Assembly (NCBI RefSeq): GCF_964204865.1
Contig: NC_135260.1
Coordinates: forward strand, 20,072,001 to 20,136,000
DNA length: 64,000 nt
Source of the DNA: Styela clava
Taxonomy: Eukaryota; Chordata; Ascidiacea; Stolidobranchia; Styelidae
Reading direction: 5' to 3'
Both the position numbers and the translations under genes were made by a program. Under the pieces are notes generated by a model. The model was not told where the DNA came from. It searched no databases and saw only the letters and a program-made list of their open reading frames with translations. Below, piece after piece: positions 3,898 to 63,105 of the stretch (position 1 is its first letter; every line of letters begins with the position of its first letter).

Positions 3898-3916
3898 GCT
3901 TCTACCAGAATACTCT

Positions 3917-4256
3917 TGTGAAATAATTTAAGTTGAATAAATTGTAATGAATGAGAAATATAGTACCTTGATATAAGGCTTTTTTCAACTTAAATTTAAA
4001 GCACTCTTAAAATGAATCTAAAGTAAAATATAACACAAATAAATGTTATTAAACACAAAAAAACAAATGCGTAGCGAATTGGTGATGCTAACAGTAAGGG
4101 GCTCAATAGTTAAATGAATAAAGTTGAAAGAATTAACACACTACATCTACAGCACAGCAATGATTGGTGTCTGATTTAAAACGCTACAGCAATTATCGCT
4201 GGGCTGCAGCTGTATAAACAAATAGATACATTGAGTTGCATTTACAAGTTATCACA
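3917..4256 (-). repeat. 5' LTR (340 bp)
   Basis: On the minus strand it begins TGTGATAACTTG and ends ATTTCACA, so the ends form a TGTGA...TCACA inverted pair. The right edge matches bases 1-32 exactly. The gag start codon (3897) is only about 20 bases beyond the inner edge. A primer-binding site is probably the TGG-initiated stretch near 3897-3906, but I could not match it to a tRNA. Confidence 0.85.
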
Positions 4257-4323: not shown

Positions 4324-7300
4324 CGTCAGACTAATGAAAAAATTGCCTAAGTCAAATTTTAACATTTTGAGTAAATAAAAAAAAACTTCATAACTTTCCC
4401 ATTTTTCAATCTATTTCAAATTTTTTTTTATCTAGATTTATCTTATCAAATTTTTAATTATTTTAGGATATCTATAACTTCCAAATTCTATTTTATATGC
4501 GCTAAAATTGACTTAGGCATTTTTTTATTCCCGCACCCTGAGTTAGGCAATATTATTCACATCTTCGCCCTATATTTTCTCTGTACATTCGCTTGACCTA
4601 TATACTTTGTAAGCGTTCATTCGGCAAATAATGAGAGAGTGACTTCCATTAAATTAATATGACACGAAAGCCAAGTCAAAAATTCGATATTCCTCCTTAA
4701 TCATAATTTGGCTTTGATGAACATAAGAATAGATGTCAGCCCACAGGCCAGATGTATTGTATTCAATTGATACAAGGAATGTAAAATTTCACAACTCAAG
4801 CAACAAACAATATAATAGAATCAAAACATAAATGACTTTTTTGAACCTAAAACATCAACATAAACAAACAACTGTAATCATGAATTTATAGTAGTATACT
4901 TCATTTAAGTTTGTATAATCTACTCGTGAGGAAGGTTGTCATAAAAAGGATGACAGTCAATTGGCATAATTGATTTCATTTCTTGAAGATCATTAAATTT
5001 CTTTGCACAAACTGGAATACGAGATCTGAACATTGGCACCCATTGACTTTGAACATTCTGTACACGGTGTGGTAGCGCTTTCCAAATTGCTTTCTCAAAC
5101 GAAAGCTTGTAACGAATACTACCATCACTTTCGTACTTCAGGGCACGCAAATCATGCACTCTGGGATCTCCTACTCTTTTTCCGGGTCTAATGCTTTGAA
5201 GGAACAATTGATTTATTCTTTTGAAATCAGTGTGCCTCATTTGGCGAACATGATATGGTGATGGATGGATTCTTGCGGATTCCATAAGTACGATCAAATC
5301 TCTTTCAGAAAAAATGTCGCCCACGATCTTTCGTTCAATGACGCTGTGCATCGAGTCACATTCCATTTGTGTATGTCCAGCCACCAGAAATTTTTGCTCT
5401 ATATCTATGTTGTGAGTTCTTGCCAGACTAGAATTTGCATTGGCTACCGTGCTATTCCTATTTTGGTAACCACATCCATCGCTCCAAACTATGATATGCT
5501 TCAGCTCGGGATTATTACAAATGATTCGCCTAAAATGCTCAAACTGCAAGTAAGCAAATACTTCACTAGAAAGATTGCCTTCAGTTTTATTCTAGACGTA
5601 ACAGTAACCTGCTTTTGATTTCGTATCATATAAAGTAAAATTGTGTACCTGTAGCTTAGTTCTGTAATATGTGGTACTAGCTCTCGTTCTAGGACATAAA
5701 AGCACGGTCTGTAGATCCATCGTCCAAACGGATTTATTTGCACTTGCAGAATCTTTGTCGGTTATTTTTTCTTTTCTAGCATCATCCTTCAGTTTGATAT
5801 GCAAGCTATACTCAACTGTACGTATGTTACCATGTTTGTAACCTACACACTTATCACACTGATCCTTTCAGGGAATGAAAACTGAGTATTTATATTTGTG
5901 GAAAATCTCGTTGAAATAAGCTTCACTAACGACCCTCCTGTTTTCTTCCTCTGCAACACTTTGGTAATGTCTGTGGAGGGCAGATATTGTGGTGCCTGGA
6001 TACAAAAATTTTATGTTTCTGCAACTTGGCAATTTTCTGCAATAATGGGAGTCTACAGTTGGTAGTGTGCTGAGCCACTCTCTTATAAACTCTCTATCCC
6101 TTTCACTTACTTTTGCACACTTTCCACTTTTCGGACCTGCTTGAACAACAGCTGTTTGGTTAGAAGAGGTTTTATCTTTAATCCAAGATGCCAAAGTTCT
6201 GCAAGGCATCTCAAACGTGGAAGCAAACATTTCTTTGCAGACTGGCAGCTCAGAATCATTCGAAAGCTTTAGTTTGAAAACATATGAAGATTTTCTCCTA
6301 GATACACCGGATGATCTTTGTTGTTTAACCTCATGTGTCCCAACCAGAGTATTTATGAATATTTTGCGTTCATTCCAAGTCGTCATAGACCAAAATTTAA
6401 TGAACATAGCAAGTCTTTGATCTTCATCTACAACGTTACACTGGCGAGTTTTGACTTTGCTACAGAATGCAGATCTACATGGTGGCCCTGGTTGACGATT
6501 GGGCACATTCTTTCCTTTCCAGTTTCTATATGATTTTCCACGGAGGCGCCTGATTTTTCCTTTATTTTGTTTCCATTTATCGTGCACTGGTCTCTTTTCT
6601 CGGTTAGGTGAGGGCTCGACATAGGTTTCAATAGTGCCATCTGATCTTGTAGAGCCTTCATTGGTATTGTCCGAAATACTCGTCGTGTCCAGATTATCGA
6701 GACTTACATCAATATCCAGTACTTCGTGAAACGGTAAATACCCACTTTCACTATATAAATATGCATCGGAATCCCCCTCGCAGCCATCGAGCTGAAGCTC
6801 TATAAAACTTCCAACTTCATTCACCTCATCTGTGATAATTAAATACGAATACATATGAAGATCGCTCGCTACTATCGCCGAATAAATCCGCATTTTTTGG
6901 CGTTCAATAACTTACCACCTGTGACAATATCATTTGCAGAAGCATTTCCAAGTAGAGCATAGTTTCCCAGCTTCCTGGACTCCATATTGTTAATATTCGA
7001 TCACTACAATTACTTGCCGGTATCGTCCAGATGTTGAAATATATATTTTAGTACACCCTACTTGAACCAGAAAGCGTTGCTAGTCGAAGAGTGTCGTAAC
7101 GACACCAGAACGTACAAAAACTGGATGCGAACAGGCGTGTTTAAATGTGCCTATCTCAATTATAGTCAGTTTAGGCAAAACCGAAATCTGCCTAAGTCCA
7201 CTTCATGAGATAGGCAGATTCGTTTTTGCCCCCTAGCGGCTGATTTATACCAGATATGAATGTTTAAATAGCATAGAAAGATAGATCTTTCCCCAACGAA

Positions 7301-16111: not shown

Positions 16112-18026
16112 CTGGCCTTACTGCAGTACTGTATTACGGTAATGTACCATATTACATGACCCAAGTTCAATGACGTACAGGTACTGTAAATGTTTGTTGC
16201 GCGACTGCCTGAATTACAGCACAGGTAATCTACCGAATTACAGAATTAATTCAGTAATTACCGGTACCGTACCGTAGCGGCACGGGTACCGGTACCGTAT
16301 CATTACTGCATTACATGAATTAATTCAGTAATTGTTGGGATAAAATATCGTCTTACTTCATTCTCTCTTCAATCCTCACCAGTTTCAAACAACTAACATT
16401 AATAGTTTCCAAAACCTTAAACTTAAAGGCCAGTTAACTCAACCGATTGTAATTAAACTGTGTAATACTGCAATAACAGGCAAAGCATAGAAGTGAATAG
16501 AAATAAAACAGCATGTAATGTCACGTGACCCGGTATTCTGGTATCGGTTTTTTCTCGAGAAATGCACTTCTGTCTGGTACATTGCCGTGAGATGTAGCCA
16601 AGTAGTAGTAGAAGTAAATCAGTGAATGTTTGCATCGAAGCCTTTACGACATACCTGTGTGAAAGTGCTTTTGCAATTTTTTGTTAAATCGTGAATATAT
16701 CCTAATAATGTAATAAATTTTATATTCAATAATAACGGTAATCATTCACCTGGCTGATATCTCTTATTGGACACGTTTAGTGGCCATAACGATCGTTTCA
16801 ATATTATGTTGTTGTTGTTCTTTGACACGTTTTTAAAAAATCGCTTTTCTCTTCGAATACTGGACCAATTGCTTTGAAATTTTCAGTGGTTAAAGAATAA
16901 TTTCTTCGCTAGAAGGCTATTACTTTTATTTATTTCAAAATTTTGCGTGAATTCTATGAAATTTGATATTTCGTCTAAAATTTTGCTGTATTATTTTTTA
17001 TCCATGGGAACACGGATTTTAGTCAGTGTCATGACTGGCTGTACGTTTTGATTCTGCAAAATTCTTGCTACTGGAAATTCAGAACTTTTTTGAGGGTACC
17101 GGTAGCGTCAAAGGTACCGGTAAAGACTGATTCGCTCTGGTCTAACGTGTCCATATATTTGTGCGTAGCTCTTTTGTTTGAATAACGCTGCTAATCTGGA
17201 GAACAAAATCGGGGGTATTTTAGGCACAAAAACACTTATTGACGGGTCTACTGCATTTGCATTATCAAGACGTCATATGACAAACCAGGAGTCACTTGTT
17301 CGCTAATTCCGCATCAACATTCAGTATAACAAAACACAGATCAACAGGTGTGATTCGCTTCGGCACTGTTTACTTTACATACACGTAAAATGACCAACGA
17401 AGTTCTTGTCGAAATATTCAAAATACTATATCGGGAAATATTCAATGACGTTGGGCCTCACGTTTAACAGATCACAATGCTTGTTGTGATTCACAACAGA
17501 ATCTAAACGCACATAATGGTACACTTTGGTAAAGTAACATTCGAGAGTATGTTCGCTTTGAACATAATAACGCTCAAATATCAAAACGCTTCGCGCAGTT
17601 TTGTGGTACAAATGATTATTTGTTTATTCATATATAGTTTATTTTATTTCTCCCGAGATTATTTCATTACAATTGGGTATTCAATGTTCATGAAAGGCGA
17701 CCAACAATTGTGATTTTTTTTCACTGTAGGCCTACAACGGAGTCACCAGAATTGTTATTCAGTTATCTCATACTATCAGCCTACCCTCTTCACAAGCTAA
17801 CACTAAGCTGTTTTCCTGGCAATATAATATTAGAATGTTTAAAGTACAGTATCATATTATCCACTGGCGTCTTTCTTCAAATAGGGAACATTAAACCTCT
17901 GGGAAGCTAGCAGCAAAAAACGAAATTAAGACTGACAGAATCGCAGAAAATACCCACGCGTAAAATTTAATGTTCCCAATGATTTGTCTTGTTAAAATAT
18001 GGTAAACAAGCATAAAAAAGGAAATG
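16112..18026. other. Intergenic, with GGTACC/ACCGGT-rich patches
   Basis: No gene is supported. 16130-16320 is dense in palindromic GGTACCGGTACC-type motifs mixed with AATTAATTCAGTAATTACC repeats. A second patch lies at about 17097-17125. The remainder is AT-rich unique-looking sequence up to the giant element. Confidence 0.5.
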
Positions 18027-18050
18027 CCGGATTGAAGAAAGCAAAGAAAA

Positions 18051-21000
18051 CGGAGGAGGGACGGTTTTAAAATTTCGAATGAAAAATATAATCATAAAAA
18101 TTGTAAGCAGAAGCAAATGAATTTCTATCAGAAACTCAAAATTATGTCAATATTTATGGCGATTTTGGTGTTTTTCAAAGCCCAGCAGCATGTGGTTCCG
18201 GTCAAGAGGGGGTTGATTTTATTATTTTAAATTAAAGATATAGTCATATAGATTATAAGCAAAGTTTAATGAATTTCAACAAAAACTTATAAATTTTTGA
18301 ATTTTTCGATTGAATTTCGATAATCTGACGCAAAATTGACGTAACTCATATATGGCGATTTTGGTGATTTTCAAAGCCCAGCAGCATGTGTTTCAGGTCA
18401 AGAGGGGATTGATTTTATTATTTTAAATTAAAGATAAAGTCATACAAATTGTAAGCAAAGTTTAATGAATTCCAACAAAAACTTGGAATTATGTGAATTT
18501 TCCGATTGACTTTTGATAATCTGCCGCAAAATTGACATAACTCATATATGGCGATTTTAGTGATTTTCAAAGCCCAGCAGCATGTGTTTCCGGTCAAGAG
18601 GGGGTTGATTTTCTTATTTTGAATTAAAGATATAGTCAAACAAATTGTAAGCAAAGTTTAATGAATTTCAACAAAAACTTGGAATTATGTGAATTTTCCG
18701 ATTGACTTTTGATAATCTGACGCAAAATTTACATAACTCATATATGGCGATTTTAGTGATTTTCAAAACCCAGCAGCATGTGTTTCCGGTCAAGAGGGGG
18801 TTGATTTTATTATTTTAAATTAAAGATAAAGTCATACAAATTGTAAGCAAAGTTTAATGAATTTCAACAAAAACTTGGAATTATGTGAATTTTTCGATTG
18901 ACTTTTGATAATCTGACGCAAAATTTACATAACTTATATATGGCGATTTTCAAAACCCAGCAGCATGTGGTTCCGGTCAAGAGGGGGTTGATTTTATTAT
19001 TTTAACTTAAAGATATAGGCATACAGATTGTAAGCAAAGTTTAATGAATTTCAACAAAAACTTTGAATTATGTGAATTTTCCGATTGACTTTTGAAAATC
19101 TGACGTAAAATTGACGTAACTCATATATGGCGATTTTGGTGATTTTCAAAACCCAGCAGCATGTGTTTCCGGTCAAGAGGGGGTTGATTTTATTATTTTA
19201 AATTAAAGATAAAGTCATACAAATTGTAAGCAAAGTTTAATGAATTCCAACAAAAACTTGGAATTATGTGAATTTTCCGATTGACTTTTGATAATCTGCC
19301 GCAAAATTGACATAACTCATATATGGCGAATTTGGTGATTTTCAAAGCCCAGCAGCATGTGTTTCCGGTCAAGAGGGGGTTGATTTTCTTATTTTAAATT
19401 AAAGATATAGTCATATGGATTATAAGCAGAATTTAATGAATTTCAACAAAAACTTATAAATTTTTGAATTTTTCGATTGCATTTTGATAATCTGACGCAA
19501 AATTGACGTAACTCATATAAGGCGATTTTGGTGATTTTTAAAGCCCAGCAGCATTTGTTTCCGGTCAAGAGGGGGTTGATTTTATTATTTTAAATTAAAG
19601 ATATAGTCATATAGATTATAAGCAAAGTTTAATGAATTTCAACAAAAACTTGGAATTATGTGAATTTTTCGATTGACTTTTAATAATCTGACGCAAAATT
19701 TACATAACTCATATATGGCGATTTTGGTGATTTTCAAAACCCAGCAGCATGTGGTTCCGGTCAAGAGGGGGTTGATTTTATTATTTTAACTTAAAGATAT
19801 AGTCATACAAATTGTAAGCAAAGTGTAATGAATTTCAACAAAAAATTGGAATTATGTGAATATTTCGATTGACTTTTGATAATCTGACGCAAAATTTACA
19901 TAACTCATATATGGCGATTTTGGTGATTTTCAAAACCCAGCAGCACGTGGTTCCGGTCAAGAGGGGATTGATTTTATTATTTTAACTTAAAGATATAGTC
20001 ATACAAATTGTAAGCAAAGTTTAATGAATTTCAACAAAAACTTTGAATTATGTGAATTTTCCGATTGACTTTTGAAAATCTGACGTAAAATTGACGTAAC
20101 TCATATATGGCGATTTTGGTGATTTTCAAAACCCAGCAGCATGTGTTTCCGGTCAAGAGGGGGTTGATTTTATTATTTTAAATTAAAGATAAAGTCATAC
20201 AAATTGTAAGCAAAGTTTAATGAATTTCAACAAAAACTTGGAATTATGTGAATTTTTCGATTGCATTTTGATAATCTGACGCAAAATTGACGTAACTCAT
20301 ATAAGGCGATTTTGGTGATATTTAAAACCCAGCAGCATTTGTTTCCGGTCAAGAGGGGGTTGATTTTATTATTTTAAATTAAAGATATAGTCATATAGAT
20401 TATAAGCAAAGTTTAATGAATTTCAACAAAAACTTGGAATTATGTGAATTTTTCGATTGACTTTTGATAATCAGACGCAAAATTGACGTAACTCATATAT
20501 GGCGATTTTGGTGATTTTTAAAGCCCAGCAGCATGTGTTTCCGGTCAAGAGGGGGTTGATTTTATTATTTTAAATTAAAGATATAGTCATATAGATTATA
20601 AGCAAAGTTTAATGAATTTCAACAAAAACTTGGAATTATGTGAATTTTTCGATTGACTTTTAATAATCTGACGCAAAATTTACATAACTCATATATGGCG
20701 ATTTTCAAAACCCAGCAGCATGTGGTTCCGGTTAAGAGGGAGTTGATTTTATTATTTTAACTTAAAGATATAGTCATACAAATTGTAAGCAAAGTGTAAT
20801 GAATTTCAACAAAAAATTGGAATTATGTGAATATTTCGATTGACTTTTGATAATCTGACGCAAAATTTACATAACTCATATATGGCGATTTTGGTGATTT
20901 TCAAAACCCAGCAGCATGTGTTTCCGGTCAAGAGGGGGTTGATTTTATTATTTTAAATTAAAGATAAAGTCATACAAATTGTAAGCAAAGATTAATGAAT

Positions 21001-21450
21001 TTCAACAAAAACTTGGAATTATGTGAATTTTTCGATTGACTTTTAATAATCTGACGCAAAATTTACATAACTCATATATGGCGATTTTGGTGATTTTCAA
21101 AACCCAGCAGCATGTGGTTCCGGTCAAGAGGGGGTTGATTTTATTATTTTAACTTAAAGATATAGTCATACAAATTGTAAGCAAAGTGTAATGAATTTCA
21201 ACAAAAAATTGGAATTATGTGAATATTTCGATTGACTTTTGATAATCTGACGCAAAATTTACATAACTCATATATGGCGATTTTGGTGATTTTCAAAACC
21301 CAGCAGCATGTGTTTCCGGTCAAGAGGGGGTTGATTTTAATATTTTAAATTAGAGATATAGTCATACAAATAGTAAGCAAAGTTTAATGAATTTCAACAA
21401 AACTTCATATAATTTTAAAACTTTTCGATTGAATTTTGATAATTTGACGC
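18051..21450 (+). repeat. Left terminal array, ~196 bp unit, about 17 copies
   Basis: Each unit contains GGCGATTTTGGTGATTTTCA, then CCCAGCAGCATGTG, TTCCGGTCAAGAGGGGGTTG, TAAGCAAAGTTTAATGAATT and TAATCTGACGCAAAATT. The anchor CCCAGCAGCATG recurs at 18181, 18377, 18573, 18769 and so on, about 196 bases apart. Some units lack the nine bases GGTGATTTT (for example near 18950). The outermost unit (18051-18200) is the most diverged. No open frame runs through the array. Confidence 0.95.
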
Positions 21451-22041
21451 AAAATTGAAGTAACTCACAAATGACGATTTTTGTCATTTTCACCAGCAGC
21501 ATGTTGTCCAATCAAGAGGGGGCTGAGTTTATTCAAAATACGTATATGTTGTTAAAGATTGTAAGCGAAGAAGAATTAATGTTATCAAAATGTTGTAATT
21601 TTGATTATTATTTTGAATTGAATTTTGATTTGAATTTTGAATTTCGATTGAATTTTGATAATTTGGCGCAAAATTGAAGTAACTCACAAATGACGATTTT
21701 TGTCATTTTCACCAGCAGCATGTTGTCCAATCAAGAGGGGGCTGAGTTTATTCAAAATACGTATATGTTGTTAAAGATTGTAAGCGAAGAAGAATTAATG
21801 TTATCAAAATGTTGTAATTTTGATTATTATTTTGAATTGAATTTTGATTTGAATTTTGAATTTCGATTGAATTTTGATAATTTGACGCAAAATTGAAGTA
21901 ACTCACAAATGACGATTTTTGTCATTTTCACCAGCAGCATGTTGTCCAATCAAGAGGGGGCTGAGTTTATTCAAAATACGTATATGTTGTTAAAGATTGT
22001 AAGCGAAGAAGAATTAATGTTATCAAAATGTTGTAATTTTT
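21451..22041 (+). repeat. Inner 219 bp tandem repeat, ~2.7 copies
   Basis: The block starting ACTCACAAATGACGATTTTT repeats at about 21461, 21680 and 21899, almost without change. It contains CACCAGCAGCATGTTGTCCA and ATCAAGAGGGGGCTGAG, so it derives from the 196 bp unit plus inserted bases (GAATTGAATTTTGATTTGAA). It forms the inner border of the left array. The open frame it creates (68 codons, twice) is a by-product of the repeat. Confidence 0.9.
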
Positions 22042-23767
22042 AGTATTATTTTGAATTGAAAATATTATCTTTAAATCTATAAGCCAATCGAATGAATTTC
22101 AGCGGGTTTCTTAAAATTCTCCTCATGGTAAAAAATAGGATGGATATGAAATATTGAAAAAAAATGGCAATCACATCTTACGAAGGAATTTAAGCAAAAA
22201 AAAAACAAAATATCGGATTAGATACGTAGGTCGTAGTGAACTAAATTGAAAATTGGCTCTGATGTTTGAGCTGTGAAACGATCAAATTGGATTGGAAAGT
22301 ATTATTTTGAAAGCTGTAATAATACGAAATCGAATCACTGAATGAATTAACTGGTTATTGTTCCATTGAATACTTGAAATTGATTCTGTATCAAATTCTA
22401 CATGAAACAAATCAAACTTGAGATTTTTTAAAACATAAATGAATCAATAAAAATATTTACAAAGAAACAACACAAATTTTTTTTATGGTTTTCAATTTTT
22501 TACTTTTTTTAGTGAAATTTTTTAATTTTATCGTTTGAAAAATAATAAGTAAAACATATAAGACGAATAATAAGAAAATACAAGACGATTACATTGCAAA
22601 ATACACACTAAGTACAGTTCGTAGCGATCAAGTTTGTAATCGAGTTGGCCTATAACAGTTAGAAAAAAATTGAGCTTTGGTAAAATTACTAAAAATGAAT
22701 TCATTGAACAAAATTATAATAACATTTATAGTCGGATGTTCAGAAAAATTGCGTATACCTTGGCGCATCCTAACACATTTTGATAAATGACAAATAATGA
22801 ATTTACAATATATTAAGGATGGGCTCTCTTTTGTACTGGACTCACTAATACCAGCTTCAGTTTGACTCGTATTCAAAAAAAAAAAAAATACTAATGTGTA
22901 TGCAGGCCTTGTTTGTCTATTGGGTATGCGTTTCAAGCTCGCCATTGACTTTTTGAAATTACAACGTCGAGACACTCGAGAGTTTGAAAACATTACTCGT
23001 GCTCAAACTATCTCACATCAACAAAAACAAGCTAAACTCGAAACTCCACAGCCAATTTCCCAATATATACTGACAGGTAGCAGTATAAATTATAAATCAG
23101 TAAGAAATCAGAAATGACAAATCTGTTTGAATATTCAGTGTTGCTGTGTCTATCAGCGATAGCAAGACATGAAAATTACAAGATAATCGATAATAATATA
23201 TGTGTCACTTGAATCAGTGAGGACCATAACCGATGTATTAGACAATTTCTATATTTTTAATTTTATCAAAATCTAACAAAATAGAAATACGTAGTAAAAC
23301 AATTATAAATAAAACACATGTCAAGTGTGACATGATTGAAATTTGAAACTTTCGCTTCTGAGTAATAATAGATAATAAAATACATGATTAATTATGATGA
23401 CTTGCACCCTGTATCAGGCAAAAACAGGAATAATAGCAACTAGAACCGTAGTTTGAATTGTACAGTGAATTTCAAATCCTTAATGAGGACAAAATTTTTC
23501 ACACGGACGGCACTTTTCCTATCTCACAAGTATCCCCCTTCACGAGTTTTAAGCCACAATTTTTTTTATCGAAATGGTCGTAGGCATAGCGGTTGAATCG
23601 TGGTGGCAATGGCATATAAGATTGTAATGTCTCAAATCTTAAAAATTCAAACTATACCAACATACCGGACACCAGAACAGATGCAAAACTTCGTAAATCG
23701 CAAGTGATTACCGTGCATAATAATGTCAATTGAGAAGAGGAACATAGCGAAAAGAGAACAAATAATG
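22042..23767. other. Giant element, interior between left array and gene
   Basis: AT-rich and non-repetitive. It is the 3' flank of the large gene, so it should hold its 3' UTR and poly(A) signal; several AATAAA-like sites exist but none can be chosen. Open frames of up to 121 codons (22628-22993, minus) show no recognisable domain and are probably chance. Confidence 0.5.
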
Positions 23768-26700
23768 TCATTGTTTATAATTTTTAAAAAAATTGTCGAA
23801 AGTATCACAAACACCCAAGTTTTGACCCACATCGTGATATGTGTCATTGGTTTTAGACATGCGATAATAAATCAGTGCCTCATGAACCAGAACCTGCTTT
23901 ATGTAATTTTTTATATGCTGTTTACCTGATTCAAAAAGTGACACTAAATCACTTCCTCTTTTAAAACAATTAGATTTGTAAACTAACATTTTTGGGGGAG
24001 TGGGTATTTTTCTAAATCCCAGACTATAATTTGTATTAATTGCAATTTCACAGTACTTAGAATGTAAGTATTTTTCCATATTTATGAGAAAGATACCCTC
24101 ACCAAAAACCATATCTAATTTTCTGTTGATTGATGCTAATAGTCTATTATAACCCTGTAAAAACATTGAATGTCGAAACCCGGAGTACTCAATTCTGGCT
24201 CTTTCGAATGGAAGATTCACAGTTTTTTCGAGCTCTGAGCAAATCAAATCTAAAGTAGAATTTTTGATAGAAGACCAACTTTCATCAGACTCATAAATTG
24301 GATCAATCTTTTGTATTTTATGTTTTACCACAGAAACACGGTTGTTTTGCGACAAAGATGGGGGAACCCTGTACCCTTTTCGTTTGACAGTCTTGATAGT
24401 GTCGTGAACTGGGGAATGATCTATCTGATCTATTTTTTTATGACCAACTTTGACATAAAATAGGAGAACACAATTCTGTTTTATCAATTCAATACAGTCC
24501 ACGTAAGGCATGATAGAAATATTGATATCATCAAATACAGCAACTTGAGAACTTTGTGGTATAAAAGAGTACGTAACAAAATGACCACGGTCTACTCTTG
24601 AACCCAAATGGATAACACAGCTGTGTAATTCATATTCGTTATATGAAGAGGCAGAATCATCATACATCGTGATTTTATCTTGTAACTCAACCGGTTGCGT
24701 TACTTTTCCGTCCTCTGCACATCTGGCTACAGCAAAAGTCAACAATAGAGGAGTCAATATAAGTTTGCTATTACATTGAGCTCGTTGACCACAATTGTTA
24801 CAGAATTTATCACAGCTTAGTTGACGATCTATACAGACTTGGGGTGAAACATTGAAATCATTATTAAGTGAAATTTGAAAATAGTTAACATCAGTCATTG
24901 TTTGCGAAGTATTGTGACCACATGAATCACACACATTGGTCCAAGAAAATATGCAATTCGTGGTTATTCCAATATACTCCAATACACCTCTTTGTATTAA
25001 AAGTATTGCAAATTCGACCACATCATGATGCTCGCCAAGATTCCATCTAAACTCCTCACATACCCCCATTAGAACCGAATGCAATTTATCCTTTTCTAGA
25101 TTATTCCCGTCTTTTAAAATTTTCAAAATACCACATATACTCTCATTCAACCAGTTTTTAGCGGAACAACCTTCTACTTCTACATGTAATTTTGATAGAA
25201 TAGAAGCAAAAGACTGGAGGGCGGAATTGAACCAACAATTATTCCAATTATTGATCATTTTTGTATGCATGGCGTAACTTTTAATAACAACTTCTGGATC
25301 TGTTTTATCGCCATCTCCAAATTCGCCAAAATTGAGCAGTTCATAAGTTATGAAGTGACGGTATTTGAATATCAATTCTGAATTAAAAGCAGGTGGTTCA
25401 CTCAACGAGCACCAAACATCAGTAGCAATGCATGTACAGACCCCACAACTGCTATTGTCATTTTGACGAATCAAACACCTTTCATTGTATTTGATTTTTT
25501 TTTCAGCTGTGATGTTTTTTTCTAAAAACGGAATGAAGTGTTTCTCTATCCTTTCTTTGAGTATTTTGTTCACTTCTCCCAATGAATCGATAACGGTAAT
25601 ATTATGGGTTTTGATTGATAAAGCCATTAGAACAAAATGTGAATTATAAAGCACAGGAAATAAAACATATTCAATAGAAGACATGTTTTTTTCATAATGC
25701 AATATTCGTTGCAGAGTATTTTTAGGATTTTTAAATTGATAACCATTTAGTACCTGTCTAACAAATATGGTATCGGTACATGCAAAAATGACCCTATTCA
25801 ATGAAGCGTTATGGCGGGTAACAGTGCAATAGATGTAAGCGCTAACAGCATTCTCGGTTAGCTGGCCAGGTTCATAATCGATTTCATTGGCATGTTTTTT
25901 TAAAGCTGAAACAACTACTTCGTTCTCAATTGGGCATACAGAGCATACATCCATCCAAAAAATAGGGCCATATTTTATCTTGAATGCAATGTGTGATAGG
26001 GTCTCTAATTTGTTTGTCCAGATATTTTCTGAAAACGACATTATTTTTTGCATTTCGGTATTGTCAAGATTCCAAACGTAGGGAGCGCACCAAGTTAATT
26101 TAGATATATTGCAGTTATTATACGCAGTATCAATTTTGTCAGATGTTTTTTGCTGTGGTATATTGTTGTACTTTTTAACAAATTTCGCTAAAAGATGCTC
26201 ATTGTAGGCGCCCTTCCCACGACATTTTCTTCTTTTTTTGAACTTGGATTCAACCATTGGGCTCTTTTTGATAGTGTCTTTAAGTATATTTTTACGTTTT
26301 CTCAAAAGATAACCACGATGTTTGACCAAGTCACCAAATTGTTTTTCAATAATTTTCAGTTGTTCTATATATCGATAAGTGAAATCATCAAGTCCAGAAG
26401 CACGGGTGTTATTGAAAAAGGTTCGCTTCATGTATCCAAAATGCTGTTCAATAGCACCCTGTGTTCTGTTATCCGAAGCGATATTTTGAACAGGGCACTT
26501 AGACAAATTGGAATACATCTTGCTGAAATTAGCAAACAATTCTTTCTGTTTAGCATTAGAGGATTCTGTTTGATGTCGAGAAAGGTCGCCAATCATAAGA
26601 GCAGAAGTGGCAACAACCCTGCTCAGTACGTACTTGACAACCACCTGGCAAAAGTTTTCATTATAAAAAGGGTTTATTTCATCAGCAGTACCAATGAACT

Positions 26701-29269
26701 TGTGTGTTAAATAGGTTGGAGACTCAAAAAATTCGTTCAACATTGTAGCATATCTGGCATAAAAGGGAGATTCTATTTCTTGTTTCAAGTCCATTTTTTC
26801 GTTTGCAATGAGAAATTCATCACTGGATTTTTCAACCCCGTGTGATGAAATTTCACTCAAATTGATATTAGAACCTTTTCCTAAAACTAAATTTAAGAGC
26901 GCATTTTTTACATCTGTTGAATTTTTACGACAGTTCGTCACTACAAAGAAATTTGCAACTAAATCATCAAGCTCATCGAGCATTGTGCAATTGAAAAATT
27001 TGGACATCCACACCATACTATCTGTGACATGAGTGAAATGTTTAGAGCACATGATAAGAGCGGCTCGCATAGCATGGCTATAACAATTTTGAACAATTGA
27101 ATGATCCAAGTCTGAATGTTTTGGTCTGCCAATAATGATTCGAAAACATCTGTTGTAATATTCAACTCGAGTCTCCCCGCAAAACGATTTTAGGACACCA
27201 TTCCAAATAGCCATGGACCCATCAATCATAATTCTTAATGGCTTTCTACAATGGCCCAATTCTGCGACTTGAAAGGCTTGGACTTGATCAAGAAACGCAC
27301 TAATGTCAAGCGCCCTATGTCTCGATGTCACAAAAGACGCAACTGGTAGTGAGAGGTATCCCCGATGGGGGTTTCTCGCAAGCAAAGTGTAAATTTGAAA
27401 ATCACTACTGGAAGGATTGCGCCTAATGATACCTCCAGTAGCATCCAAATAAATAATGTCCTCCTGAGAGCGGGCGGAGTAATATTTCAACTGTGTTTTG
27501 CTCATAATTATTATGCTGGGTGGCTCTGCACCAATGAATCTTATGTAATTATCTCCCTCATATTTTTCCATCATATTTTTCAGATTCACGATAGAAAATT
27601 TTGTCTGCCTAAAGTCTTTTTTCTCATTTTTTATTTTCCGCAACACGTCACTTGAAGGGGCGTACGAGTGCGAACCAAATTCCCTCTCTTCCTGTGTCAG
27701 TTTATCGTAAGCAATATTATAATGAACAGAAGGTGGAATAAATTTCATTTCATCTCTTAGTTTTTTCCTAACCTCACCCCGTACATAAATGCTTCGCTTA
27801 CAGCCAATATTATGTTTGCGAAAGCCGGTGATTTTTATGCGACCCTCCAACCTACCAATTGTTTTGTAGAACATAATAGCAATATCAACGGAGCATTTGC
27901 AGCATTTTTGATGAGCACACTGCAGCTTTAGGTACCCTATTGGTTTCAAGATTTCAGTCAAAGGTTCAGCGACACTTTCTGGGGCATATAAATAGTGATA
28001 TCGCAAAGTTGGTACACAACATTTATACAATTTTTGCACTTCCGCAATAACAAAATTCTTAGCCACATAGATACCATCAGAGCTAAGTCTATGCTCCGTA
28101 CGATCACACATGATATGATTCCAGATCGTTGGAGATATTAAAAATACGCTACACAGATCTACTTGCACACATGTGCTATAGATCTGTGTTTCTTCACATG
28201 TATCATGTGTTTCAGCAACATTGCTCTGTACTTCTTTGCGAATATCCAAATCTGAAAGATTGCAAATTTTGTTGGAATAAGGTAATTCATCCGAATTTTC
28301 AGTCACATGATCAGCAGGAAAAAAATCTGTCTCGCTGCAATCCATTTTTTGTTCAGTTTGAGTGTCTTGTTTAGAGTGGTACGGAGTTTGAGTTTTTTTG
28401 TTGTCACTATGTGTAGAATGTTGAGGTATTGGTAACACACTTTTGTCGTGTACAAAAATGTACCCGCTTGAATTTGGACTATGAAAAGCAACTTTCGTAT
28501 TCGAGCATACGAGTAAAATCTTTTCCCATTCTTTATCATTCACATATTTCAAATACTCACTTTGGATGACGCATGCAGGGTGAAACCATCTTTTACATTG
28601 GTCGCATTCTATCATTATTTCATCTCCTTTCCACTCACTCTCGCAATCACAAAAAACTTGGCCTTCATAATCGGATACGTTAAATATATCACCTGTATTT
28701 TGAGGCGGTATCTCAAGAATGTTACTATTTTCAATGGCCTCAGCGGGAGGGACAAATGGAGCGCAATCCACTGGTTCCATCGAATCAATGTCGCGAATAA
28801 TTCTGAGAACATTTTTTTCACTCCGATCAAGGTGCTTTGAAGAAATTTCTTGCAGCGCTACTGCTCTCTTGTCTGAGCGCTTCAATGAATCATGGCAGGG
28901 CATGATCTTTTGAGAGTGAATGGGCAAGCATGCATTGCGTATTTCGTTTCCATGTTCCTTGAAAAAATTAATTAAAAGCAACTGTCTTGTCTTGTTAGAT
29001 CTCTTTTCCCAAAATTTATTCATACGAAGAAAGCTGGCTTGATGGTCAAAATCCGCAAAATCTTTAAGATTATTTTGTATTAAATATTTGGCAATAGCCG
29101 TACATATCTTTTTTATCCATTTAGAATTCCCTGAACATTTGATAGTTTTTTTGCTATTAGTTTTAAAATTAGAATTCATAACTTCTGTCGTTTCGCCACG
29201 TTTTTCCCCTTCAGATTCCAGTAGTTTTTTCGAATTTTCCAAAGAAAAATGCATACTATTTGATATCAA
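23768..29269 (-). CDS. 1833-aa transposase with PHD, DDE, Ulp1-like and USP-like domains
   Basis: One uninterrupted frame, no introns needed. Domains by residue. A PHD-like zinc finger spans about 207-260: C207, C209, C222, C225, H230, C233, C255. The last cysteine is missing (LVCSNTK). A transposase core spans about 600-950: YLDATGG (D609), IMIDGS (D683), CYSHAMRA (H732) and GAIEQHFGYMKR (E941), resembling DDE of MULE/KDZ type. A basic stretch lies at 985-1018. A Ulp1/C48-like cysteine protease spans about 1110-1290: H1211, D1228, Q1269, C1275 (RQNDNSSCGV). A C19 ubiquitin-specific protease spans about 1335-1605: Cys box NNWNNCWFNSALQSF (C1345), HHDVVEF, zinc pairs CDSC and CNNC, His box DRGHFVTY (H1563), then D1580-D1581. 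The C-terminal 230 residues are unrecognised. All key residues except the PHD cysteine are present, so it may be intact. M30 is an alternative start. Confidence 0.85.
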   Translation of the reverse strand: MISNSMHFSLENSKKLLESEGEKRGETTEVMNSNFKTNSKKTIKCSGNSKWIKKICTAIAKYLIQNNLKDFADFDHQASFLRMNKFWEKRSNKTRQLLLINFFKEHGNEIRNACLPIHSQKIMPCHDSLKRSDKRAVALQEISSKHLDRSEKNVLRIIRDIDSMEPVDCAPFVPPAEAIENSNILEIPPQNTGDIFNVSDYEGQVFCDCESEWKGDEIMIECDQCKRWFHPACVIQSEYLKYVNDKEWEKILLVCSNTKVAFHSPNSSGYIFVHDKSVLPIPQHSTHSDNKKTQTPYHSKQDTQTEQKMDCSETDFFPADHVTENSDELPYSNKICNLSDLDIRKEVQSNVAETHDTCEETQIYSTCVQVDLCSVFLISPTIWNHIMCDRTEHRLSSDGIYVAKNFVIAEVQKLYKCCVPTLRYHYLYAPESVAEPLTEILKPIGYLKLQCAHQKCCKCSVDIAIMFYKTIGRLEGRIKITGFRKHNIGCKRSIYVRGEVRKKLRDEMKFIPPSVHYNIAYDKLTQEEREFGSHSYAPSSDVLRKIKNEKKDFRQTKFSIVNLKNMMEKYEGDNYIRFIGAEPPSIIIMSKTQLKYYSARSQEDIIYLDATGGIIRRNPSSSDFQIYTLLARNPHRGYLSLPVASFVTSRHRALDISAFLDQVQAFQVAELGHCRKPLRIMIDGSMAIWNGVLKSFCGETRVEYYNRCFRIIIGRPKHSDLDHSIVQNCYSHAMRAALIMCSKHFTHVTDSMVWMSKFFNCTMLDELDDLVANFFVVTNCRKNSTDVKNALLNLVLGKGSNINLSEISSHGVEKSSDEFLIANEKMDLKQEIESPFYARYATMLNEFFESPTYLTHKFIGTADEINPFYNENFCQVVVKYVLSRVVATSALMIGDLSRHQTESSNAKQKELFANFSKMYSNLSKCPVQNIASDNRTQGAIEQHFGYMKRTFFNNTRASGLDDFTYRYIEQLKIIEKQFGDLVKHRGYLLRKRKNILKDTIKKSPMVESKFKKRRKCRGKGAYNEHLLAKFVKKYNNIPQQKTSDKIDTAYNNCNISKLTWCAPYVWNLDNTEMQKIMSFSENIWTNKLETLSHIAFKIKYGPIFWMDVCSVCPIENEVVVSALKKHANEIDYEPGQLTENAVSAYIYCTVTRHNASLNRVIFACTDTIFVRQVLNGYQFKNPKNTLQRILHYEKNMSSIEYVLFPVLYNSHFVLMALSIKTHNITVIDSLGEVNKILKERIEKHFIPFLEKNITAEKKIKYNERCLIRQNDNSSCGVCTCIATDVWCSLSEPPAFNSELIFKYRHFITYELLNFGEFGDGDKTDPEVVIKSYAMHTKMINNWNNCWFNSALQSFASILSKLHVEVEGCSAKNWLNESICGILKILKDGNNLEKDKLHSVLMGVCEEFRWNLGEHHDVVEFAILLIQRGVLEYIGITTNCIFSWTNVCDSCGHNTSQTMTDVNYFQISLNNDFNVSPQVCIDRQLSCDKFCNNCGQRAQCNSKLILTPLLLTFAVARCAEDGKVTQPVELQDKITMYDDSASSYNEYELHSCVIHLGSRVDRGHFVTYSFIPQSSQVAVFDDINISIMPYVDCIELIKQNCVLLFYVKVGHKKIDQIDHSPVHDTIKTVKRKGYRVPPSLSQNNRVSVVKHKIQKIDPIYESDESWSSIKNSTLDLICSELEKTVNLPFERARIEYSGFRHSMFLQGYNRLLASINRKLDMVFGEGIFLINMEKYLHSKYCEIAINTNYSLGFRKIPTPPKMLVYKSNCFKRGSDLVSLFESGKQHIKNYIKQVLVHEALIYYRMSKTNDTYHDVGQNLGVCDTFDNFFKNYKQ

Positions 29270-29275
29270 ACGCTT

Positions 29276-29770
29276 AGGAAACCTTCCCTCACTTCTTAGG
29301 AAGAGAATTGGACGTAATAAACTCGATTAAATAAACGAACACTTGACACCAATGCGTGCAAATCAAAACGACTTTCAAATGTCGGAAAGATATGAAAGCT
29401 CTAGGAAACCTTCCTCACTTCTTAGGAAGAGAATTGGACGTAATAAACTCAATCAAAAAAACGAACACTTGACACCAATGCGTGCAAATCAAAACGACTT
29501 TCAAATGTCGGAAAGATATGAAAGCTTTAGGAAACCTTCCTCACTTATAAGAAGAGAATTGGACGTAATAAACTCGATCAAAAAAACGAACACGTAACAC
29601 CAACGCGTGCAAATCAAAACGACTTTCAAATGTCGGAAAAATATGAAAGCTTTAGGAAACCTTTCTCACTTCTTAGGAAGAGAATTGGACGTAATAAACT
29701 CGATCAAAAAAACGAACACTTAACACCAATGCGTGCAAATCAAAGCGACCTTCAGATGTCGAAAAGAAAT
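29276..29770 (+). repeat. 126 bp tandem repeat, four copies, at the 5' end of the large gene
   Basis: TAGGAAACCTTCC recurs at about 29276, 29402, 29527 and 29653. Each unit also contains GAATTGGACGTAATAAACTC, AATGCGTGCAAATCAAAACG and CTTTCAAATGTCGGAAAGAT. It begins only seven bases upstream of the start codon of the minus-strand gene, so it forms its promoter or 5' leader. It is unrelated to the 196 bp unit. Confidence 0.9.
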
Positions 29771-30756
29771 GCGATCGATATTTTTTCTGCTACAGTTTAA
29801 GAAGTATGTTTGAACCACGCCGTTGATTATGACGCAGCAGTTACAGCGAACCGAGCAACGCAAGCGTGGAAAATGTTGCCCCGAGAATCGATTTTCTGAA
29901 CAATACCTCAATTATGACGTAGGCGAAGTGATTTGTCCTGCGGTCCAAGGACTTCTTTCGTTCACAGCCGTACACAGTTTTCAGAAATTAGATGTGAATC
30001 ACTAGTTGTCATCATGCCTTCCCGGGAGTTTTAGCTTACCAAATTTATTCAAATATAACGTGCACTCTCTAAACACGGTGTATTAATTTTGATTAAAAAT
30101 TGGTATAAATATTTTTCTACTTTACTTAATATACGATGTACTAAAAAGTAACTCAAATAAAAAGAGGTTGAAATGCTACTTGAAACATTTAACACTGACA
30201 TCTTATAACAGGTTTGAATTACGGTGGAATGCCATTTGAACATTTAGGAACTGACGCTTTTTAACAGTTACTTTTTTGATGCTGTCATGGCGAGAAATTT
30301 TACCTTAATTTTGCGTAACTTATTTAACACCCTGTATATTACGCATGTATTACGCACATGGCACATCCTTGGTTTTTTTGCATAATTATGCGCGGTATAC
30401 GCGAATAAATACGGTAATTGCAATATTCAAAAATTAGTCCCAGAAAAGTCATGATAGAATATTATTACCTGTAAGCGGTATGTATTTTTTTTTTCAGAAA
30501 ATAGATATTTAAAAAAAAGGAAATGAGTTTGTAAGTGCCAACTCTTCAAATCACTCAAAAATAATCATCAAAACTTTTGCAATAGTAAAGTAAAAAAATA
30601 TTTTTAGAGGGTTCAAGTGTCTAGGAAAAATGAATATGAAAAAGTGTTCTAAAGCGAAAGTTTTGGCTCTTAACGGATGATTAGTAGTCAATTGAATGGA
30701 CGTCGTGGGGAGGAGAGTTTGGGATGTATATTCGACATTGAAATTAGAATGAACAT
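29771..30756. other. Giant element, interior between 126 bp repeats and right array
   Basis: No gene is supported. Likely promoter region of the large gene together with spacer. The sequence becomes recognisably repeat-like from about 30757 (GATTTGACCGAAAATCGCC). Confidence 0.5.
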
Positions 30757-33700
30757 CATTGATTTGACCGAAAATCGCCATATACGAGTTACGTCAATTT
30801 TGCGTCAGATAATCAAAATTCAATCGGAAAATTCTAAAAGTTATAAGTTTTTGTTGAAATTCATTAAACTTTGCTTATATTCTTTATAAATACATCTTTA
30901 ATTTAAAATAATAAAATCAACCCCCTCTTGACCGGAAACACATGCTGCTGGGTTTTGAAAATCACCAAAATCGCCATATATAAGTTACGTCAATTTTGCG
31001 TCAGATTATCAAAAGTCAATCTGAAAATTCACATAATTCCGAGTTTTTGTTGAAATTCATTAAACTTTGCTTACAATTTGTATGACTTTATCTTTAATTT
31101 AAAACAATAAAATCAACCCCCTCTTGACCGGAAACACATGCTGCTGGGCTTCGAAAATCACCAAAATCGCCATATATGAGTTACGTCAATTTTGCGTCAG
31201 ATTATCAAAAGTCAATCGGAAAATTCACATAATTCCAAGTTTTTGTTGAAATTCATTAAACTTTGCTTACAATTTGTATGACTTTATCTTTAATTTAAAA
31301 TAATAAAATCAACCCCTTCTTGACCGGAAACACATGCTCTTGGGCTTTGGAAATCACCAAAATTGGCATATATGAGTTACGTCAATTTTACTGCAGATTA
31401 TCAAAATTCAAAAATTTATAAGTCTTTGTTGAAATTCATTAAACTTTGCTTATAATCTTTATAAATATATCTTTAATTTAAAATAATAAAATCAACCCCC
31501 TCTTGACCGGAAACACATGCTGCTGGGTTTTGAAAATCACCAAAATTGCCATATATGAGTTACGTCAATTTTGCGTCAGATTATCAAAAGTCAATCGGAA
31601 AATTCACATAATTCCAAGTTTTTGTTGAAATTCATTAAACTTTGCTTACAATTTGTATGACTATATCTTTAATTTAAAATAATAAAATCAACCCCCTCTT
31701 GACCGGAAACACATGCTGCTGGGCTTCGAAAATCACCAAAATCGCTTTATATGAGTTACGTCAATTTTGCGTCAGATTTTCAAAAGTCAATCGGAAAATT
31801 CACATAATTCCAAGTTTTTGTTGAATTCATTAAACTTTGCTTAAAATTTGTATGACTATATCTTTAATTTAAAGTAATAAAATCAACCCCTTCTTGACCG
31901 GAAACACATGCTCTTGGGCTTTGGAAATCACCAAAATTGGCATATATGAGTTACGTCAATTTTACTGCAGATTATCAAAATTCAAAAATTTATAAGTCTT
32001 TGTTGAAATTCATTAAACTTTGCTTATAATCTTTATAAATATATCTTTAATTTAAAATAATAAAATCAACCCCCTCTTGACCGGAAACACATGCTGCTGG
32101 GTTTTGAAAATCACCAAAATTGCCATATATGAGTTACGTCAATTTTGCGTCAGATTATCAAAAGTCAATCGGAAAATTCACATAATTCCAAGTTTTTGTT
32201 GAAATTCATTAAACTTTGCTTACAATTTGTATGACTATATCTTTAATTTAAAATAATAAAATCAACCCCCTCTTGACCGGAAACACATGCTGCTGGGCTT
32301 CGAAAATCACCAAAATCGCTTTATATGAGTTTCGTCAATTTTGCGTCAGATTATCAAAGGTCAATCGGAAAATTCACATAATTCCAAGTTTTTGTTGAAA
32401 TTCATTAAACTTTGCTTACAATTTGTATGACTTTATCTTTAATTTAAAATAGTAAAATCAACCCCCTCTTGACCGGAAACACATGCTGCTGGGCTTCGAA
32501 AATCACCAAAATCGCCATATATGAGTTACGTCAATTTTGCGTCAGATTATCAAAAGTCAATCGGAAAATTCACATAATTCCAAGTTTTTGTTGAAATTCA
32601 TTAAACTTTGCTTACAATTTGTATGACTTTATCTTTAATTTAAAATAATAAAATCAACCCCCTCTTGACCGGAAACACATGCTGCTGGGCTTCGAAAATC
32701 ACCAAAATCGCCATATATGAGTCATGTCAATTTTGCGTCAGATTATCAAAATTCAATCGAAAAATTCACACAATTCCAAGTTTTTGTTGAAATTCATCAA
32801 ACTTTGCTCACAATTTGTATGACTATATCTTTAATTTAAAATAATAAAATCAACCCCCTCCTGACCGGAAACACATGCTGCTGGGCTTCGAAAATCACCA
32901 AAATCGCTTTATATGAGTTTCGTCAATTTTGCGTCAGATTATCAAAGGTCAATCGGAAAATTCACATAATTCCAAGTTTTTGTTGAAATTCATTAAACTT
33001 TGCTTACAATTTGTATGACTTTATCTTTAATTTAAAATAATAAAATCAACCCCCTCTTGACCGGAAACACATGCAGCTGGGCTTCGAAAATCATCAAAAT
33101 CGCCATATATGAGTTACGTCAATTTTGCGTCAGATTATCAAAAGTCAATCGGAAAATTCACATAATTCCAAGTTTTTGTTGAAATTCATTAAACTTTGCT
33201 TACAATTTGTATGACTTTATCTTTAATTTAAAACAATAAAATCAACCCCCTCTTGACCGGAAACACATGCTGCTGGGCTTCGAAAATCACCAAAATCGCC
33301 ATATATGAGTTACGTCAATTTTGCGTCAGATTATCAAAAGTCAATCGGAAAATTCACATAATTCCAAGTTTTTGTTGAAATTCATTAAACTTTGCTTACA
33401 ATTTGTATGACTATATCTTTAATTTAAAATAATAAAATCAACCCCCTCTTGACCGGAAACACATGCTGCTGGGCTTCGAAAATCACCAAAATCGCTTTAT
33501 ATGAGTTTCGTCAATTTTGCGTCAGATTATCAAAGGTCAATCGGAAAATTCACATAATTCCAAGTTTTTGTTGAAATTCATTAAACTTTGCTTACAATTT
33601 GTATGACTTTATCTTTAATTTAAAATAGTAAAATCAACCCCCTCTTGACCGGAAACACATGCTGCTGGGCTTCGAAAATCACCAAAATCGCCATATATGA

Positions 33701-35970
33701 GTTACGTCAATTTTGCGTCAGATTATCAAAAGTCAATCGGAAAATTCACATAATTCCAAGTTTTTGTTGAAATTCATTAAACTTTGCTTACAATTTGTAT
33801 GACTTTATCTTTAATTTAAAATAATAAAATCAACCCCCTCTTGACCGGAAACACATGCTGCTGGGCTTCGAAAATCACCAAAATCGCCATATATGAGTCA
33901 TGTCAATTTTGCGTCAGATTATCAAAATTCAATCGGAAAATTCACACAATTCCAAGTTTTTGTTGAAATTCATCAAACTTTGCTCACAATTTGTATGACT
34001 ATATCTTTAATTTAAAATAATAAAATCAACCCCCTCCTGACCGGAAACACATGCTGCTGGGCTTCGAAAATCACCAAAATCGCTTTATATGAGTTTCGTC
34101 AATTTTGCGTCAGATTATCAAAGGTCAATCGGAAAATTCACATAATTCCAAGTTTTTGTTGAAATTCATTAAACTTTGCTTACAATTTGTGTGACTTTAT
34201 CTTTAATTTAAAATAATAAAATCAACCCCCTCTTGACCGGAAACACATGCAGCTGGGCTTCGAAAATCATCAAAATCGCCATATATGAGTTACGTCAATT
34301 TTGCGTCAGATTATCAAAAGTCAATCGGAAAATTCACATAATTCCAAGTTTTTGTTGAAATTCATTAAACTTTGCTTACAATTTGTATGACTATATCTTT
34401 AATTTAAAATAATAAAATCAACCCCCTCTTGACCGGAAACACATGCTGCTGGGCTTCGAAAATCACCAAAATCGCTTTATATGAGTTTCGTCAATTTTGC
34501 GTCAGATTATCAAAGGTCAATCGGAAAATTCACATAATTCCAAGTTTTTGTTGAAATTCATTAAACTTTGCTTACAATCTGTATGACTATATCTTTAATT
34601 TAAAATAATAAAATCAACCCCTTCTTGACCGGAAACACATGCTCTTGGGCTTTGGAAATCACCAAAATTGGCATATATGAGTTACGTCAATTTTACTGCA
34701 GATTATCAAAATTCAAAAATTTATAAGTCTTTGTTGAAATTCATTAAACTTTGCTTATAATCTTTATAAATATATCTTTAATTTAAAATAATAAAATCAA
34801 CCCCCTCTTGACCGGAAACACATGCTGCTGGGTTTTGAAAATCACCAAAATTGCCATATATGAGCTACGTCAATTTTGCGTCAGATTATCAAAAGTCAAT
34901 CGGAAAATTCACATAATTCCAAGTTTCTGTTGAAATTCATTAAACTTTGCTTACAATCTGTATGACTATATCTCTAAGTTAAAATAATAAAATCAACCCC
35001 CTCTTGACCGGGACAACTTGCTGCTGGGCTTTGAAAATCACCAAAATCGCTAAATACGAGTTTCGTCAATTTTGCGTCAGATTATCAAAAATCAATCAAA
35101 AAATTCAAAAGTTTATAAGTTTTTGTTGAAATTCATTCGACTCTGCTTACAATCTATATGACTATATCTTTGATTTAAAATAATAAAATCAACCGCCTCT
35201 TGACCGGGACAACTTGCTGCTGGGCTTTGAAAATCACCAAAATCGCTAAATATGAGTTACGTCAATTTTGCGTCAGATTAACTCAATCGAAAAATTCAAA
35301 AGTTTATAAGTTTTTGTTGAAGTTCATTCGACTTTGCTTACAATCTATATGACTATATCTTTAATTTAAAATAATAAAATCAACCGCCTCTTGACCGATA
35401 CAACATGCTGCTGGGCTTTGAAAATCACCAAAATCGCTAAATACGAGTTTCGTCAATTTTGCGTCAGATTATCAAAACTCAATCAAAAAATTCAAAAGTT
35501 TATAAGTTTTTGTTGAAATTCATTCGACTCTGCTTACAATCTATATGACTATATCTTTAATTTAAAATAATAAAATCAACCGCCTCTTGACCGGGACAAC
35601 TTGCTGCTGGGCTTTGAAAATCACCAAAATCGCTAAATACGAGTTACGTCAATTTTGCGTCAGATTAACTCAATCGAAAAATTTGAAAGTTTATAAGTTT
35701 TTGTTGAAGTTCATTCGACTTTGCTTACAATCTATATGACTATATCTTTAATTTAAAATAATAAAATCAACCGCCTCTTGACCGATACAACATGCTGCTG
35801 GGCTTTGAAAATCACCAAAATCGCTAAATACGAGTTACGTCAATTTTGCGACAGATCATCAAAATTCAATCAAATAATTCACATAATTCCAAGGTTTTGT
35901 TGAAATTCATTTGACTTTGCTCACAACTGTATCTTTAATTTAAAATAACTAAATCAACTCTCTCTTCTCC
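30757..35970 (-). repeat. Right terminal array, ~196 bp unit, about 26 copies
   Basis: Reverse complement of the left array: CAACCCCCTCTTGACCGGAA, ACATGCTGCTGGG, AAAATCACCAAAATCGCC, ATATATGAGTTACGTCAATT. The unit recurs about every 196 bases. Higher-order structure is visible: a variant unit with ATGCTCTTGGGCTTTGG occurs near 31334, 31910 and 34640, and another with CAGCTGGGCTTCG near 33073 and 34252. Blocks of several units have therefore been duplicated together. The outer units (35000-35970) form a distinct subfamily with ACAACTTGCTGCTGG and CGCTAAATACGAG. Confidence 0.95.
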
Positions 35971-35976
35971 GGATTG

Positions 35977-36521
35977 TAATGTTCGTCTGACGTCATTGTT
36001 GCTTTAGATTTCTTACCGTAGCTGATTTAGTTGAAATACAAATCCATTTTATGATGTCCACATTGTTTATAAAATTGAATAATATACGCTATGTTTGGTA
36101 TTATATATGGCCAAGTAAAAACGTGCTGCTACTGTTCTGGTATAGTGAAGTCGAATCTATAAGGTATCTGGTTTTCTCCGAATGTATCATGGGGCTGTCC
36201 TTATTGGCCGTTTTTGAGAAATCGACGTTCCAAAAATGATAATAATCTTGTATACCTGAAAAATAATTTTTAAATCACTTAGTCTTTTTTAAAACACTAT
36301 TTTGCAGTCAAATTCGTTGTATTCATTCAGTTTAGAGATTTTTCCATGTATTTCCGTGGTCAAATTTTACTTTATCAACCTTTTCAATCTTTATATGTAA
36401 CTATAAGTGAACTTATATGCGCGTGGAAACTATATTCAATATGTAAAAATATTCTGGCTGAAAATGCTGCTAGCTTCACAGTGGTGAACATTAACGTGAC
36501 AGGAGAGCGCAATATCTGGAG
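35977..36521. other. Spacer between giant element and next hAT element
   Basis: AT-rich, with no gene, RNA or repeat that I can support. Confidence 0.5.
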
Positions 36522-51522: not shown

Positions 51523-51777
51523 TCAAGTTGTTGACTAATTGTTAGAGTTAAAAGTATTTATTACTGAATTAATATTTAAAAAAATATTGTTACATGAGGC
51601 ACCGTGATATATGTAAGGCAGTGACTGAGATGCCACTTCTATAATGCAAACAAATTAAAATTGAGAATTCTGAAGAGCGAGCAAAACTTTTAATAAAGTT
51701 TAGGACATGAGAAATATCATGTGCCCATTCACCAGCCCACATATTCCCAACAGGGGTGATAACTTTTTTGTGGCTTT

Positions 51778-59310: not shown

Positions 59311-59441
59311 TCCTTTTTATGTAAAATGCGGTACCGGTACGATAACCTATAAGTTAAGTTAGATAGTAGATAGTTATTCATTGTGTACCGTAATCATATA
59401 TCATACAGTACATTTTATTAACATATACGGTACGGTACCGG

Positions 59442-63050: not shown

Positions 63051-63105
63051 CCATAATGGTACCAAGCAAGGGAGTATATTAAGTCCATATTTATATGCTG
63101 TTTTC

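Follow-up and report, generated by a model that had tools for sequence, protein, structure and literature searches.

A Rehavkus-type transposon of the tunicate Styela clava with SENP-like and USP-like protease domains in one predicted transposase

We analyzed a 64,000-nucleotide stretch of the Styela clava genome (NC_135260.1, positions 20,072,001 to 20,136,000; hereafter the window). Between window positions 17896 and 36485 lies a cut-and-paste transposon of the Rehavkus type that has moved recently and is apparently autonomous. Its one long protein very probably consists of a PHD finger, a zinc-type domain, a DDE-like core, a Peptidase C48 domain, a Peptidase C19 domain, and a conserved C-terminal domain. 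A second copy, on contig C8, served to place the ends of the element, whose features are as follows.

17887..17895, no strand: left 9-bp target-site duplication, GAACATTAA, the same as 36486-36494; the boundary lies where identity with the C8 copy stops
17896..36485: transposon, 18,590 bp
17896..17915, plus strand: left terminal inverted repeat, 20 bp, 18/20 match to the right end
18155..21533, plus strand: 196-bp tandem array on the left (17.4 copies), whose longest arms show 93% complementarity with the right array
21423..22060, plus strand: 219-bp tandem array, 2.9 copies
23768..29269, minus strand: transposase frame, 1833 amino acids, in which the first ATG codes for residue 6; both near-identical copies have it intact
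23771..24274, minus strand: conserved C-terminal domain, residues 1666-1833; FRHSxFLQ common to the database homologue P0004
24425..25288, minus strand: Peptidase C19 domain, residues 1328-1615, with C1345, H1563, D1580, and Cys pairs 1447/1450 and 1490/1493
25316..26047, minus strand: Peptidase C48 domain, residues 1075-1318, with H1211, D1228, Q1269, C1275
26435..27532, minus strand: DDE-like catalytic core, residues 580-945, with D609, D683, E941, and C729-x2-H732
27800..28156, minus strand: zinc-type and possibly WRKY-like domain, residues 372-490, a candidate for DNA binding
28499..28660, minus strand: PHD finger (PF00628), residues 204-257; F206, M219, D223, and W228 at cage positions
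29262..29771, no strand: 126-bp tandem array, 4 copies, covering the frame start and upstream sequence
30771..35926, minus strand: 196-bp tandem array on the right (26.6 copies), inverted relative to the left one
36466..36485, minus strand: right terminal inverted repeat, 20 bp
36486..36494, no strand: right 9-bp target-site duplication, GAACATTAA

A preliminary description of this DNA had read the frame as one transposon protein that combines a C48-type with a C19-type domain, and profiles of both segments bear this out. Its coordinates and length for the frame were correct (the strand, which it did not state, is minus), and all six residues that it named, H1211, D1228, Q1269, C1275, C1345, and H1563, are where it placed them. 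From stop to stop the frame spans 1852 amino acids (23768-29326), with TTG at 29269 as the first start-type codon. Because the 126-bp array overlies the start of the frame, the 5' leader or promoter consists of tandem repeats.

The C19 segment has a Cys box, a His box, and a catalytic Asp. The curated UCH profile scores 33.7 bits in the full protein and 40.7 bits in the segment, and all 11 aligned members match. Best profile matches of the segment are USP12 and USP46, and a USP fold is matched in the predicted model, with USP12 best by Z at 18% identity. In a conservation alignment of 23 rows (L009/L010, L016/L018, L017/L019, and L021/L022 are near-duplicates), all 18 rows that span the Cys retain it, as do all 15 that span the His, with P0009 excluded from the count.

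The C48 domain stands on segment profiles and not on the full-length scan. The isolated segment scores 28.7 bits against PF02902 (cut-off of 20.7) and 8 of 13 aligned members match at E ≤ 1, but PF02902 was not among the matches when the full-length protein was scanned against Pfam. A single-sequence phmmer search found only SENP1 (E = 0.014), a profile of 13 sequences reached SENP2 at 2.5e-7, and these two are the best profile matches of the segment. The His-Asp-Gln-Cys set is complete and in order in 18 of 19 spanning rows, a count that leaves out P0007 and P0009, which are aligned there by stray letters only; the exception is L019, a broken copy with Arg for His. Residues 1070-1640 were modelled jointly, and the listed fold matches are all occupied by the C19 part.

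Evidence for the other modules varies. PF00628 scores 22.7 bits in the window protein (P0001), slightly below the cut-off of 24, and 25.9 bits in P0004, and the top phmmer matches in PDB are PHD proteins (5.6e-6). By reading of the alignment, seven of eight ligands of the finger are present, the seventh Cys being absent. The DDE-like core proposed in the preliminary description is upheld in its motif, as D609, D683, E941, and C729-x2-H732 are identical in all 20 aligned rows that span all of them. These residues form the pattern D-D-CxxH-E. On possible membership among Mutator-like transposases, a Pfam scan of 11 members (E ≤ 1) nonetheless matched no transposase family, a PDB sequence search with the core gave no match, and the structure model of this part is of low confidence; the DDE label therefore rests on the motif and its conservation.

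Comparison of the two near-identical copies is informative on mobility. Both share the termini ACCTCTGGGAAGCTA... and ACCACTGTGAAGCTA..., and the terminal sequence of the element is ACCNCTGNGAAGCTAGCAGC. Inward from ∼20 bp of directly matching ends there is unlike sequence and then the inverted arrays. No repeat longer than 9 bp flanks the ends of the window copy. The C8 copy (∼21.1 kb, with longer arrays) has AAAAAAAAC at both flanks of the same termini, at an A-rich site that also permits a shifted 10-bp reading. Over a core of 8706 bp, the copies differ at five positions (99.94% identity), and there are no differences in the outer 255 bp and 506 bp. Within the 5556-nt frame, three nucleotide differences change two residues, at 1014 and 1314. 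Separate flanks, each with its own duplication, indicate transposition and rule out segmental duplication as the source of the two copies, and their near-identity indicates that transposition was recent.

Relatives are present in the same genome and in public databases. At least 42 rows of the Styela clava assembly (376.6 Mb) match the protein, a minimum given that 26 of 244 candidates were scored. Besides the second near-identical copy, these include five loci that are broken, with main pieces 97-99% identical (lesser pieces 81-98%), and two older broken loci that are 66-90% identical. More divergent lineages, at 49-55%, 35-38%, and 27-30% identity to the window copy, have long open frames in most cases and stops in some. 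Three long database homologues, P0002-P0004, are 25-27% identical to the window copy over the whole alignment, and P0002 terminates within its own C19 domain. Shorter homologues are P0005-P0009; P0005 carries C48 and the beginning of C19, and P0008, named Styela clava, is 100% identical in the alignment to paralogues L009/L010. Among 28 proteins or longest open pieces, which contain all profile seed sequences and exclude duplicate loci, profiles of the two segments detected C48 in 23 and C19 in 21, some partially. Misses were pieces ending ahead of the domains (L003, P0006-P0008; L004 and L020 for C19) and P0009. The preliminary description had suggested looking for homologues with the same order of domains, and the order recurs in deep lineages of the assembly and in P0002-P0005. 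The metagenome sequence P0009 is transposase-like, with a USP Cys-box-like motif shortly after the core and no C48 match. It could represent a C19-only arrangement; the sequence ends soon after the motif and was missed by the C19 profile.

Ratios of nonsynonymous to synonymous substitution (dN/dS; Nei-Gojobori) were estimated from 12 informative pairs, which are non-independent and include L013 and L015 from copies with stops; eight pairs were informative for the DDE core. Values are 0.11-0.17 for the DDE core, 0.12-0.30 for C48, 0.23-0.58 for C19, 0.17-0.30 for the C-terminal domain, 0.17-1.22 for the three linkers, and up to 1.15 for the N-terminal stretch. Ratios are unstable in three near-identical pairs (C19, 1.01 in L017/L019; C48, 0.51, and C-terminal domain, 1.90, in L016/L018; DDE, 1.59 in L009/L010). 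These values indicate that both protease modules are under purifying selection, with a constraint that is real and below that of the DDE core. In maximum-likelihood trees of nine shared taxa, C19 and DDE have six of six splits in common (C19 supports of 46 to 100), whereas C48 and DDE have five of six, the discordant C48 split having a support of 61. Most likely, the modules were joined prior to the divergence of these lineages and then inherited together.

Elsewhere in the window, other sequences of mobile elements are found. A 22-bp minisatellite unit occurs at 51777-51918 and 57831-57951, mutually inverted and ∼6 kb apart, and a 197-bp array of 8.7 copies (56100-57820) adjoins the right-hand one; this arrangement suggests a further element whose inverted ends are minisatellites. 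A hAT transposase is located at 59855-61998 on the minus strand, where the frame 59855-61411 matches PF05699 (38.9 bits) and DUF4371 (30.6 bits; cut-off of 32.1) and a second frame, to 61998, resembles its N-terminal part by eye. Also by eye, minus-strand frames at 45-3927 resemble a broken gypsy-type retrotransposon pol, plus-strand frames at 62968-63725 resemble part of the reverse transcriptase of a non-LTR element, and 4920-6911 (minus) resembles another transposase-like gene. In the latter, the frame 4920-5591 has weak similarity to DUF7869 (20.3 bits; cut-off of 26) and the frame 5868-6911 has none. A minus-strand MGMT-like frame at 58753-59316 has a 6-O-methylguanine DNA methyltransferase domain (PF01035, 92.7 bits).

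Published descriptions of Rehavkus, including Rehavkus-1_TC and Rehavkus-1_HR in Repbase, give a 9-bp target duplication, one open reading frame, a transposase PHD finger, and minisatellite (PMC6446971), and for Rehavkus-1_TC, 164-bp units within inverted termini (PMC10218199). The window element has a 9-bp duplication, a PHD finger in its transposase, and inverted terminal minisatellite arrays, all of which the preliminary description had overlooked. It differs in its length of 18.6 kb, its 196-bp units, and its tunicate host, the hosts on record in the accessible text of PMC6446971 being insects and annelids. In the portions of PMC6446971 and PMC13359780 available to us, C48 and C19 go unmentioned, and "Ulp1" and "ubiquitin" have no occurrences. 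Ulp1 (C48) domains are reported in Ginger1 elements and Mutator-like elements (MULEs), at the C-terminal side of the transposase, and Ginger1-9_HM has Ulp1 and PHD; transposase class and ends differ from those of the window element, and the accessible part of PMC2836005 does not mention C19 alongside C48. No described transposase with a USP was known to the preliminary description. One is on record, Trichomonas XP_001314237.1, in which Peptidase C19 is fused to a transposase of a different type (transposase_11, PF01609), with C48 and PHD unmentioned in the same part of PMC2836005. C48 and C19 have each been recorded singly in transposases. Our searches of the open-licence literature turned up no transposase with both. 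USP12/USP46 and SENP1/SENP2 are cellular enzymes, to our knowledge not parts of mobile elements.

The best explanation of the whole, to which we give a probability of roughly 0.55, is a Rehavkus-type transposon whose protein deconjugates ubiquitin-like modifiers from itself or from target chromatin. The PHD finger would dock the protein onto H3K4-methylated open chromatin, the possibly WRKY-like zinc domain is a candidate binder of the terminal repeats, and the DDE-like core would carry out strand transfer. C19 may take ubiquitin off the transposase or nearby chromatin, stabilizing the transposase, and C48 may take off SUMO or another ubiquitin-like modifier placed on the transposition complex by host silencing or repair machinery. 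Both domains are probably active isopeptidases. Confidence falls from cleavage of ubiquitin by C19, to cleavage of SUMO or another ubiquitin-like protein by C48, to action on the transposase itself or on proteins at the site of transposition; deconjugation in cis, taken by itself, is somewhat short of an even chance.

Several observations weigh against this explanation. Protease dN/dS overlaps the range of the linkers, C19 more than C48, consistent with constraint that is real yet weaker than on the DDE core. A C48 alignment position that we take to be the tunnel Trp site of SENPs is Gln in the window copy and closer relatives, Cys in P0005, and Trp in other lineages, making C48 specificity a matter for measurement, and the residue following the catalytic His is Phe, which bears on the C48 substrate. 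Confidence in the structure model of the protease part is intermediate (mean predicted local distance difference test score of 65.1). Rehavkus terminal inverted repeats are published as 26-400 bp (PMC6446971) versus a direct match of ∼20 bp here (18/20), and the assignment to Rehavkus is by published features of the group.

The same domains could instead act in trans: guided by the PHD finger, they would strip heterochromatin or piRNA-pathway factors of SUMO and ubiquitin and thereby derepress all copies. In worms, SUMO has been linked to silencing directed by Argonaute and piRNAs (PMC8131101 and PMC8131105), and desumoylation would act on this modifier in the main reading as well, but protection in cis requires fewer assumptions and we regard action in trans as improbable. 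Somewhat less probable still is that one or both protease domains are kept chiefly for binding ubiquitin-like modifiers or as structural modules. Gln at the supposed tunnel position in one clade would fit this, as would C19 dN/dS values that reach 0.58 among informative pairs (1.01 for near-identical L017/L019); binding alone does not require the Cys, however, and active-site residues are retained in nearly all rows, in lineages 27-38% identical to the window copy.

Precursor processing is a role of C48-clan proteases in some viruses and mobile elements, and an adenain-like C48 might split the 1833-residue protein into transposase and deubiquitinating parts. A search confined to the Gly-Gly motif in 10 frames did not find a conserved inter-module Gly-Gly: the single one in the window copy is at 612, within the DDE core, and only L009-L012 and L014 have one in the linker before C48. 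Self-processing at Gly-Gly is predicted to be unlikely, and we hold the processing role to be quite improbable. Proneness of MULEs to acquire host gene fragments (PMC6446971) raises the prospect that the proteases are functionless passengers recently captured from the host. This is rejected by the largely congruent module trees and purifying selection, and disagrees with the same domain order in deep lineages and P0002-P0005 and with frames intact in both near-identical copies; its chance is very small. Smaller yet is that of a chimera of assembly or annotation, which the preliminary description had named as grounds for abandoning its claim. No point in its support was found, and it is rejected by the other full-length copy, which sits on a different contig and differs at three nucleotides of the frame, and by the divergent paralogues and database proteins that carry the same fusion and order.

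Protease domains for ubiquitin-like modifiers have previously been seen singly in several transposases, the reason not established. Here, two protease families and a histone-reader-type finger are retained jointly, with active sites intact, across lineages ∼30% identical. Involvement of ubiquitin and SUMO pathways in transposition has been proposed, and the old guess that transposons manipulate these pathways (voiced in PMC2836005) becomes directly testable: the window copy is complete and of recent origin, and changing a single Cys to Ala in either domain would uncouple that protease from transposition. Rehavkus, a little-described group of insects and annelids (PMC6446971), would have its published range extended to a chordate. 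If Repbase Rehavkus entries carry both C48 and C19, the window element is a further member with domains newly recognized. A bolder and rather doubtful reading is that the transposase may be its own eraser of chromatin modifiers. Its PHD finger would read H3K4 methylation, and its proteases would take ubiquitin off histones or the transposase and SUMO off silencing factors. If true, one protein would find open chromatin, avoid degradation, and relieve SUMO-dependent silencing of the element, a dual-modifier counter-defence inside a transposase that would have been retained through the deep lineages of the group.
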